The translations under genes were made by a program, and so were the position numbers. From Patescibacteria group bacterium (GTDB taxonomy: Bacteria; Patescibacteriota; Microgenomatia; UBA1406; GWC2-37-13): 64,000 nt of DNA. The notes under the pieces are model-generated. The model searched no databases. It saw only the letters and a program-made list of their open reading frames with translations, and was not told where the DNA came from. Position 1 is the first letter of the stretch, and the number at the start of each line of letters is the position of its first letter. Positions 10,905-13,902 of this stretch are shown here, piece by piece. Where the stretch lies: NCBI GenBank assembly GCA_026004415.1, contig BPJC01000001.1, forward strand, positions 186,001 to 250,000, written 5' to 3'.

Positions 10905-11738
10905 TTATTTTTGACAGTTAGGGCAGAAAAAACTGCTTCTGCCTTTTTGTTTTAGTCTTTTTATTTTGGCTCCGCAGTTGTTAGGGCATAATTGACCTTC
11001 TTTGTTGTAAACTAAAGCATGTTTTTGGTAGTTGCCTTTTTGTCCAAATATGTCTACAAAATTAAGTTTACTCGTTCCTTTATGGTTGATGCCTTCTGCT
11101 AAAACTATTTTCATTGATTGGTAAAGTGCTTTTATGTCTGAAGATTTAAGCTGTTTAGCCTTTTTAAAAGGGTTTATTTTAGCCAAGAACAAAGCATCGT
11201 TGGCATATATATTGCCTATACCTGCAATTTTACTTTGGTCAAGTATAAGGTCTTTGATACTTTGGTTTGAGTTTGATACAAGTTCAAAAAAGTCTTGGTA
11301 GAGAATTTTTAAGGCATCTTGTCCAAGATGAATAAAAAATTGCCAAGATTTAATCGCATCAAGTTTGTCTACTTTAATCCAACCAAATCTTCGTATATCA
11401 TTGAAAAACAGCTTGGTATTGTCTGTAAAGATTATTACTGCTTTGGTGTGTTTATTAGGTAGTTGAATAACAGTACCTGCAAGATTAAATCTTGATTTGT
11501 TAGTATAAAGAAGTTGTCCTGTCATTTTAAGATGCAGAGCAATGGCCTTTTGGTTTGACAGTTGAATTATAAGTCCTTTTCCTAATCTGACAATGTTTTC
11601 AACAGTTTCATTTGCAACACTGACCTTGATTTTGTTGTGAGATAGTTTGTCAAACAACCTAATATCTGCAATTTGTTTGCCGATAATATGACCTTCTAGT
11701 TGTTTTTTTATTGTTTCTACTTCTGGAAGTTCTGGCAT
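10905..11738 (-). CDS. mutM: Formamidopyrimidine-DNA glycosylase
   Basis: Excises oxidised purines such as 8-oxoguanine and cuts the abasic site. I place the start at 11738 rather than 11759 because the enzyme must begin MPELPEVE, with Pro2 the Schiff-base nucleophile and Glu3 the catalytic acid. The H2TH region (DQSKIAGIGNIYANDALF) and a C-terminal zinc finger (CPNNC ... CPNC) are intact. It lies back-to-back with the nth fusion, giving a small base-excision-repair locus. Confidence 0.95.
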   Translation of the reverse strand: MPELPEVETIKKQLEGHIIGKQIADIRLFDKLSHNKIKVSVANETVENIVRLGKGLIIQLSNQKAIALHLKMTGQLLYTNKSRFNLAGTVIQLPNKHTKAVIIFTDNTKLFFNDIRRFGWIKVDKLDAIKSWQFFIHLGQDALKILYQDFFELVSNSNQSIKDLILDQSKIAGIGNIYANDALFLAKINPFKKAKQLKSSDIKALYQSMKIVLAEGINHKGTSKLNFVDIFGQKGNYQKHALVYNKEGQLCPNNCGAKIKRLKQKGRSSFFCPNCQK

Positions 11739-11771
11739 AAATGATATAATTGTAACCAAAATTGTTTAGAT

Positions 11772-12791
11772 ATGAAAACTCTAAGACAAGATTTAGCAGA
11801 TATTTATTTGCACAAGTTGCGGGAGCTTTTTCCTGAGGTTAAACCAAGTTTAAATTATAAAACAGACTTTCAGTTTTTAACTGCTGTTATGCTTTCAGCT
11901 CAGTCAACTGATAAGCAGGTAAATAAAATCACAAAAGATTTTTTTAATAAGTTTCCAACAGCAGAAAGCATTGCAAAAGCTAGTTTGTCAGAGATAAAAC
12001 AGCAGTTGAAGTCACTCGGGCTTTATAATACTAAATCAATTAATTTAAAAAAAACAGCCGAGATTATTTATAAAAAACACAACGGCAAGGTACCTAAAGA
12101 TAGGCAGTTGCTTGAGGCTTTGCCAGGCGTTGGCAGAAAAACTGCAAATGTCGTATTATCTACCTTGTATAATGACAATTCAGGTATTGCTGTTGACACG
12201 CATATTGCTAGATTAGCTAGATTATTAGCTTTAACCAATCACACTAGCAGGCTAAAGATTGAGCAAGATCTGCTTAAATTAATACCCGAAAACCAAAGAT
12301 TTGGTTTTAGTTTAAGGTTAATTTTTTATGGTCGGAAATACTGCAAAGCTAATCATTTTGCTATGCATAATCCTAATCATTATCACTGCCCTCTTACTGT
12401 TGAATTAAGAATTTATCTTCAAAAAAAAAGAATAGCTTTAATAGGCTTTAGTTTTAATAAAGACAAATATGGCAACAAAATAGCCAAAGATTTGATTAGG
12501 TTCGGGTTTAATAACTTATTTTTGGTTAACCCCAAGGGAGGTAGATATGGCAACAGGTTGGTTTATAAAGATATAAAAGATATCTTAATAAATTCAGAAA
12601 TTGATATTTTTCTTTTTGTTGTAAAGCCAGAAATTAGTTTAAGAATAGTCAGATGTCTTAACCAAAAAAAAGTTTCCGGTCATTATTGGTTTCAACCAGG
12701 TTCATTGGCTGATGATCTTGTTGGTTATTTAAATGGTAATAATCTGTCATTTTCAAGTTTTTGCATAATGAGATCAGCCGGCATTTGGTAG
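11772..12791 (+). CDS. nth: Endonuclease III fused to a CoA-binding-like (Rossmann) domain
   Basis: Residues 1-215 are an endonuclease III glycosylase that removes oxidised pyrimidines: LSAQSTDKQVN, helix-hairpin-helix LPGVGRKTA with catalytic Lys123, and VDTHIAR with Asp142. Residues 219-339 form a second domain (KRIALIGFSFNKDKYGNKIA ... FLVNPKG ... YWFQPGS) resembling the CoA_binding_2 (YccU-like) Rossmann family. The iron-sulfur cluster site C-x6-C-x2-C-x5-C is not intact: only Cys191 and Cys206 remain. The fusion is not one I know from model bacteria. The glycosylase call is secure; the role of the second domain is not. Confidence 0.85.
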   Translation: MKTLRQDLADIYLHKLRELFPEVKPSLNYKTDFQFLTAVMLSAQSTDKQVNKITKDFFNKFPTAESIAKASLSEIKQQLKSLGLYNTKSINLKKTAEIIYKKHNGKVPKDRQLLEALPGVGRKTANVVLSTLYNDNSGIAVDTHIARLARLLALTNHTSRLKIEQDLLKLIPENQRFGFSLRLIFYGRKYCKANHFAMHNPNHYHCPLTVELRIYLQKKRIALIGFSFNKDKYGNKIAKDLIRFGFNNLFLVNPKGGRYGNRLVYKDIKDILINSEIDIFLFVVKPEISLRIVRCLNQKKVSGHYWFQPGSLADDLVGYLNGNNLSFSSFCIMRSAGIW

Positions 12792-12792
12792 T

Positions 12793-13458
12793 ATGAGTGT
12801 AGAACAGAATATTTTAAAATCGCCTATTTTTCCTTATTATTTGGAATTCAATCTTTATGATGTCATTATTTATCCAAACTGCTGGAATCAATTTTTGTTT
12901 CCTGACTTAAAAGATAAAAATACTTCTGTAGGACTTGTTTGTTCCAGATTTGCACATAATGATTTGGTATACCTCAAACTAAAATTAGTTGTTGGCATCA
13001 GCAGATTTGCTGATTTGCCTTATCAATATTTAAAACTATTAATCTTTTTATCAAAAGAGGGATTAAGATATATTATGGTAGATAAGGTGGCTTTAGATCC
13101 AGAGAATGCAGATAGATTTTATTATTGTCCTCCTGGAAATGTTGAGAGATATTTTAAAATCTTTAAAAAAAACAGCAAATTTACTTATTATTTAATTGGA
13201 AGCGATCCTAAAATGTTTATTTACCCCAACTATGATGCTATTATAGTAGACTCCTCTTTAGATTTTATTGATTCTGCGCCTGTTAGTGCTCAAATTAATA
13301 GATTAAGTGTAGTACTTGATTCTGGTGTTTATCAGTTGGGTTTTTGTGTTGATTTCAGAAAAATAGATTTTGATTCAATTTCACATCGGACTTCAATGCC
13401 AGAGTTGGCAAATATTGTTTTGCCAGCAATAAATTTTTTTGCAACGCCCCAAAATTAA
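12793..13458 (+). CDS. Conserved-looking protein of unknown function
   Basis: The ATG follows the nth stop after one base, so it is almost certainly co-transcribed with the repair fusion. The 221 residues show no signal peptide or membrane helix and alternate hydrophobic strands with acidic loops (YDAIIVDSSLDFIDSAPV, LEFNLYDVIIYPNCWN). I see no motif that identifies a family. Given the operon, a partner of the CoA-binding half is possible, but this is only an inference from position. Confidence 0.6.
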   Translation: MSVEQNILKSPIFPYYLEFNLYDVIIYPNCWNQFLFPDLKDKNTSVGLVCSRFAHNDLVYLKLKLVVGISRFADLPYQYLKLLIFLSKEGLRYIMVDKVALDPENADRFYYCPPGNVERYFKIFKKNSKFTYYLIGSDPKMFIYPNYDAIIVDSSLDFIDSAPVSAQINRLSVVLDSGVYQLGFCVDFRKIDFDSISHRTSMPELANIVLPAINFFATPQN

Positions 13459-13492
13459 CCGGATAATTTGGTAAAATTAACCTAATTGTTTT

Positions 13493-13564
13493 GGCCGGGT
13501 GGCGAAGAGGTAACGCGGCGGTCTGCAAAACCGCTATGCGCGGGTTCGAATCCCGCTCCGGCCT
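13493..13564 (+). tRNA. tRNA-Cys (anticodon GCA)
   Basis: The cloverleaf closes: acceptor GGCCGGG/TCCGGCC (one G-T pair), anticodon stem GCGGT/ACCGC with loop CTGCAAA, and T arm GCGGG-TTCGAAT-CCCGC. The discriminator is T, as expected for cysteine. CCA is not encoded, so the cca enzyme in this window is needed. Confidence 0.95.
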
Positions 13565-13584
13565 CAATAGTTTCAACTTTTCTT

Positions 13585-13902
13585 ATGACCAAAAAATTTT
13601 TTTTCGCAGAGTTTTTAATATCTTTAGTTTCTTACTTTATTCAGGTGCTTTTAACGCTGAGAATTGTGTTAAAACTTACTGGAGCAGGAGCGTCAGCTCC
13701 TTTTGTCTCATGGGTTTACAATACTACTTATCCTTTGATAAGTCCTTTTGTGGGAGTTTTTCCTTCGCCTCAGGTTGATGTGTTTATTATTGAGTTTTCA
13801 TCTATTTTTGCTTTAGTTGTTTACTCTGTTTCAGCTCAGTTTCTGATAGCTTTATTATCCAGTCTTGAAAAGGTGCTGTCCTCTGAAAATAAAAAACAGT
13901 AA
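13585..13902 (+). CDS. YggT-family small membrane protein
   Basis: The start is the ATG at 13585, just after tRNA-Cys; an apparent extension upstream merely translates the tRNA. The 105 residues contain two hydrophobic segment pairs and the YggT-type sequence TLRIVLKLTGAGASAPFVSWVY with TTYPLISPF. YggT proteins are implicated in division, osmotic tolerance or thylakoid assembly in other groups; the molecular role is unclear. Confidence 0.8.
   Translation: MTKKFFFAEFLISLVSYFIQVLLTLRIVLKLTGAGASAPFVSWVYNTTYPLISPFVGVFPSPQVDVFIIEFSSIFALVVYSVSAQFLIALLSSLEKVLSSENKKQ

Follow-up and report, generated by a model that had tools for sequence, protein, structure and literature searches.

The gene at positions 11772–12791 on the forward strand of the window, that is, the whole 64,000-nucleotide stretch of DNA analyzed here, encodes a 339-residue protein in which an endonuclease III (Nth)-type DNA glycosylase is followed by a CoA_binding_2 Rossmann domain. 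From sequence comparisons, we propose that this protein is a cluster-free glycosylase/AP lyase with a Cys/His metal loop and an acquired CoA-binding regulator domain. We give this combined reading a probability of roughly 50%.

Pfam searches place both domains well above their cut-offs and in one frame, as the first-pass annotation had anticipated. The Nth catalytic core spans residues 1–190 (11772–12341) and contains an HhH-GPD domain (PF00730) at residues 38–172 (E = 7e-24; 84.6 bits against a cut-off of 26.2). The best solved relatives of the N-terminal part are the Nth structures 1p59, 1orn, and 2abk, which match residues 13–207 with an E value of 1e-41. In Nth enzymes, a lysine attacks the sugar with the assistance of an aspartate, and the cluster loop helps to bind DNA. 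Both catalytic residues are kept at the positions expected for Nth, as previously noted: K123 (codon 12138–12140) in the HhH sequence LPGVGRK123TAN and D142 (codon 12195–12197) in VD142TH, each conserved in the aligned protein of a sister genome. The nth model TIGR01083 is narrowly missed (205.1 versus a curated score of 211.7), and the part aligned to it, residues 13–194, ends at an altered cluster loop comprising residues 191–206 (12342–12389). An inter-domain joint of residues 207–218 (12390–12425), with a poly-A tract at about 12417–12425, leads into the CoA_binding_2 domain, which covers residues 219–339 (12426–12788). Pfam assigns residues 219–329 to PF13380 (E = 3e-13; 50.5 bits against 22.8), which confirms the suspected nature of the C-terminal part. 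Its best PDB sequence match is 1y81, and it also matches PH1109 (2d59, 2d5a). An alignment of six CoA_binding_2 proteins that includes the fused domain contains 20 invariant columns, such as those in the GxS, KYG, KGG, QPG, and CxM motifs. AlphaFold models built from an input of only two sequences, those of the window and the sister genome, had mean pLDDT values of 50 for the fusion and 45 for the CoA domain, too low for the models to be used.

The protein resembles endonuclease III (TIGR01083; 1p59, 1orn, 2abk) in its HhH-GPD core and catalytic lysine and aspartate, but differs in the missing C-x6-C-x2-C-x5-C motif, in its score below the curated value, and in the extra C-terminal domain. The absence of the four-cysteine motif weakens the label of a classical Nth, but not the Nth ancestry of the protein. 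Similarly, the C-terminal domain shares its family and the motifs KYG, NP, WFQPG, and CIM with free-standing PF13380 proteins (1y81, PH1109); the relatives that we found either stand alone or belong to acyl-CoA synthetase-like proteins, whereas here the domain is joined to a DNA glycosylase.

A fusion of the same length (339 residues; 81% identity), with the same neighboring genes, is present in a congeneric metagenome-assembled genome (MAG), Patescibacteria group bacterium KatS3mg091 (G001; BPJD01000004.1, locus L080). This second copy bears on the concern, raised in the first-pass annotation, that an assembly error had joined two separate genes. The poly-A run at the joint would fit an assembly or sequencing error, but the run, CTTCAAAAAAAAAG in the window, reads CTTCAAAAGAAAAG in the sister genome, where it is interrupted by G with length and frame unchanged. 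An independent MAG with the same fusion, length, and frame rules out a homopolymer or assembly artefact with near certainty. Between the two genomes, dN/dS is 0.15 over the whole gene (Nth core, 0.155; CoA part, 0.13), and most substitutions are at third codon positions (99, against 35 at first and 34 at second positions). This third-position bias, together with the low dN/dS in both parts, indicates that the two domains are read in one frame under similar purifying selection.

The survey of Patescibacteria that had been suggested for this fusion yielded this second case and confined it to one genus. The fusion occurs in 2 of 83 genomes examined in the order, namely those of the window and its sister, and none was found elsewhere in the class in a sample of 373 genomes. 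When 287 genomes of the phylum were searched with a profile of the CoA subtype, the matches listed with short open frames included no further fusion; a scan of genome contigs for exact peptide patterns matched the sister genome alone.

The loop that normally holds the [4Fe-4S] cluster is the fastest-changing stretch of the fused pair (56% identity versus 81% overall). As reported earlier, only two of the four cluster cysteines are left, C191 and C206. The loop is rich in histidines (H195, H199, H203, and H205), a feature that the first-pass annotation missed, and the sister genome keeps C191, H195, H203, H205, and C206, whereas roughly half of the loop positions differ. For comparison, we extracted about 100 Nth homologues from the class. 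None of the 25 Nths sampled from the family to which the window belongs has the four-cysteine motif, and 21 of them share the motif C-x4-H-x-H-x2-C instead (e.g., CPARKHDHKNCPL), here termed CHHC. These four residues are invariant in the 21 proteins although pairwise identities range from 45 to 79%, with a median of 59%. Of the remaining four, two carry neither motif, and the other two are the fused proteins, in which a longer loop reads C-x3-H-x7-H-x-H-C. Outside the family, a compact C-x3-C-x-H-x2-C form occurs in two families (f18 and f31), sampled members of three others (f2, f19, and f41) contain no ligand motif, and most other families keep C-x6-C-x2-C-x5-C. Class-wide, Nth loops were recorded in four states: four cysteines, C-x4-H-x-H-x2-C, C-x3-C-x-H-x2-C, or none (L003–L030, L063–L140). 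As a separate observation, MutY-like open reading frames adjoining nth (L005, L009, L011, L014, L017, and others) show no recognizable cluster-cysteine motif in the parts inspected.

A phylogeny of 75 Nths places the fused pair with the CHHC proteins of two genomes, G032 and G029 (support 97/92). The C-x3-C-x-H-x2-C sequences make up one group in it, and loss to no ligands happened several times. With the fused pair nested among CHHC proteins and its unfused relatives also devoid of the cluster motif, the loss, which is family-wide, is most likely older than the fusion. The same observations reject the idea that the fusion cut off the fourth cysteine and so caused the loss. The first-pass annotation was right that the canonical site is truly missing, but the link that it implied between the lost cluster and the fusion is not supported; nor is the change a simple loss, since within the family a conserved Cys/His motif stands in for the four cysteines. 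The most economical reading of these alignments is that the motif forms a replacement metal site. In MUTYH, the [4Fe-4S] cluster is connected to the catalytic aspartate via an arginine and an asparagine (PMC12000561), and attempts to mutate the cluster cysteines of a Deinococcus Nth gave a single purifiable mutant, which was unstable (PMC9268735). A naturally cluster-less Nth must stabilize its loop in another way, and the Cys/His motif is the obvious candidate.

An inability of the organism to make iron–sulfur clusters was considered as the cause of the loss and rejected. The genome of the window contains a SUF cluster with SufU-, SufS-, SufB-, and SufC-type genes, a further SUFBD protein, and an Rrf2-type regulator; the genes other than SUFBD were named by reading their sequences. 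Four-cysteine Nths are found both with and without these genes (34 genomes of the class sample with SUFBD and 14 without). SUFBD is present in 15 of the 16 sampled genomes with a CHHC Nth, and missing SUF genes therefore do not explain the loss of the cluster in the family. The same count leaves room for a reading in which the Cys/His loop still holds an iron–sulfur cluster, for example with Cys2His2 ligation, so that the site would be changed rather than given to another metal. Rieske proteins hold an iron–sulfur cluster in just this manner, and we retained the reading because such ligation exists in other proteins. However, C-x4-H-x-H-x2-C is compact and unlike the spacing in Rieske proteins, and of the nine genomes with the related C-x3-C-x-H-x2-C form, eight lack SUFBD. 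We consider a retained cluster very unlikely, and a structural metal ion in the loop is the reading carried forward here.

The CoA domain probably came from the gene neighborhood of nth. In this family, nth is usually part of a repair island, in which RadC, MutY, and nth precede DinB, LexA-like, MscS, fusA, and ribosomal-protein genes (some names were checked by Pfam, the rest assigned by reading and similarity clustering). In one genome, G014, a free-standing CoA_binding_2 gene directly follows nth, and the two overlap by 8 nt (ATGGATAA), which contain the ATG start of the CoA gene and the TAA stop of nth. The four best free-standing matches of the 287-genome profile were read in their genomic context. 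Genes of the same subtype adjoin DinB and LexA-like genes in two further genomes, G010 and G081, and in G010 also an SRAP gene; their position corresponds to the island that holds MutY–nth in other genera. A search with the full protein found no Nth match in G010 or G081, and the HhH-GPD matches of these genomes are located elsewhere. Free-standing CoA_binding_2 genes next to DinB and LexA-like genes were recorded at L172:1669–5191, where SRAP is also present, and L173:3097–5240. The location of CoA_binding_2 genes beside DinB and LexA-like genes suggests a repair-associated subtype.

The overlap in G014, the island context in G010 and G081, and the shared invariant residues make it probable that a CoA partner from the repair island became part of Nth through loss of the stop codon between neighbors. 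A tree of the short CoA domains gave no resolution and put the fused domain on a long branch; its topology was set aside as proof of origin, and descent from a G014-type neighbor is thus likely, not proven. No CoA gene adjoins nth in G032 and G029, the genomes with the closest Nth relatives, and the fusion gene today adjoins fpg.

In the mechanism that we propose, the fusion product would be a bifunctional Nth-type glycosylase/AP lyase for oxidized pyrimidines, a predicted activity, and would work without a canonical [4Fe-4S] cluster. Two cysteines and two or three histidines would organize the loop, and what they most likely hold is a single structural metal ion, for example Zn2+. The C-terminal Rossmann domain would once have been a protein in its own right, encoded in the same repair gene cluster by what was probably an overlapping neighbor until loss of the intervening stop left one gene. 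The ligand of the tethered domain is most likely CoA, acyl-CoA, or a similar nucleotide, and the domain would tune or place the glycosylase in cis. The CoA or nucleotide signal suggested in the first-pass annotation may act on repair. A more far-reaching version, which we hold to be rather doubtful, is that the family, despite its capacity for iron–sulfur assembly, swapped the [4Fe-4S] cluster of Nth for a redox-inert Cys2His2 metal site and paired Nth with a CoA sensor, which became built-in in one genus, thereby coupling base-excision repair to the CoA/acyl-CoA state.

Two other accounts of the fused domain do without a regulatory ligand. The domain might be a structural prop or spacer that steadies the shortened cluster loop or mediates dimerization, its ligand being irrelevant to repair. 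Only about 12 residues separate the altered loop from the CoA domain, and the long branch of the latter in its tree would agree with such a role; yet the pocket-type motifs of the free-standing subtype are all kept (GxS, KYG, NPKGG, QPG, and CxM), this domain and the Nth core are under equally strong selection, and unfused relatives manage without it, which makes a prop unlikely. It is similarly improbable that two independent activities came to lie on one chain through chance loss of a stop codon and persisted because the result was harmless. Such an event would suit a fusion limited to two genomes of one genus, and a single mutation could join the overlapping pair in G014, but both genomes retain the joint, with 81% identity over the whole protein, and the CoA subtype accompanies repair genes in three other genomes, hinting at a shared function. 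An acquired ligand-binding domain that acts on the glycosylase is the interpretation that we prefer.

Several known glycosylases offer partial parallels. The zinc snap of Tag and the zinc linchpin of MUTYH are structural Cys/His metal sites (reviewed in PMC9266487) and resemble the present motif in their residues and in a structural role, which is putative here; they lie elsewhere in the protein, whereas this motif sits at the [4Fe-4S] loop and its metal is putative. MutY with its NUDIX-type domain (PMC9266487) likewise joins an HhH glycosylase to an acquired, once free-standing C-terminal domain, but that domain recognizes 8-oxoguanine, while the one added here belongs to a CoA-binding family. 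Among open-licence papers, we found none on an Nth–CoA fusion, an absence that argues only weakly for novelty, nor any that clearly describes Nths without the cluster in Patescibacteria. What the [4Fe-4S] cluster does in Nth and MutY is still disputed, with structure, DNA charge transport, and allostery to the catalytic aspartate as the proposed roles. A clade in which a Cys/His motif is invariant, alongside sister clades with four cysteines or no ligands, provides natural enzymes with which the function of the cluster can be tested. If the CoA partner does regulate Nth, it would directly link central metabolism and base-excision repair.

Among the neighbors of the fusion gene, the divergent gene at 10905–11759 on the reverse strand encodes an Fpg/MutM DNA glycosylase (PF01149, PF06831, PF06827) with its own zinc-finger match and is given as context only. 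The open reading frame that begins one base downstream of the fusion (12793–13458, forward strand), which the first-pass annotation had tentatively counted as part of the same system, is placed outside it. It has no Pfam or NCBIfam match and, in a search of 37 genomes, homologues only within the genus. It is intact in the genome of the window, its sister copy (L080:7018–7701) is broken into two frames, and over the alignable part dN is 0.171 and dS 0.27 (dN/dS about 0.63); homologue search, frame, and dN/dS all fail to support membership. Further along, the open reading frame listed at 13486–13902 from a TTG at 13486 runs through a tRNA-Cys gene (13493–13565, anticodon GCA), and its true start is likely further downstream. 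Finally, outside the window, the same genome contains a second glycosylase fusion (G000:C1, L171:1061–1948), a 295-residue protein that combines PF01035, the O6-methylguanine methyltransferase DNA-binding domain, here with PCYKV in place of the usual PCHRV, with an HhH-GPD domain (PF00730).
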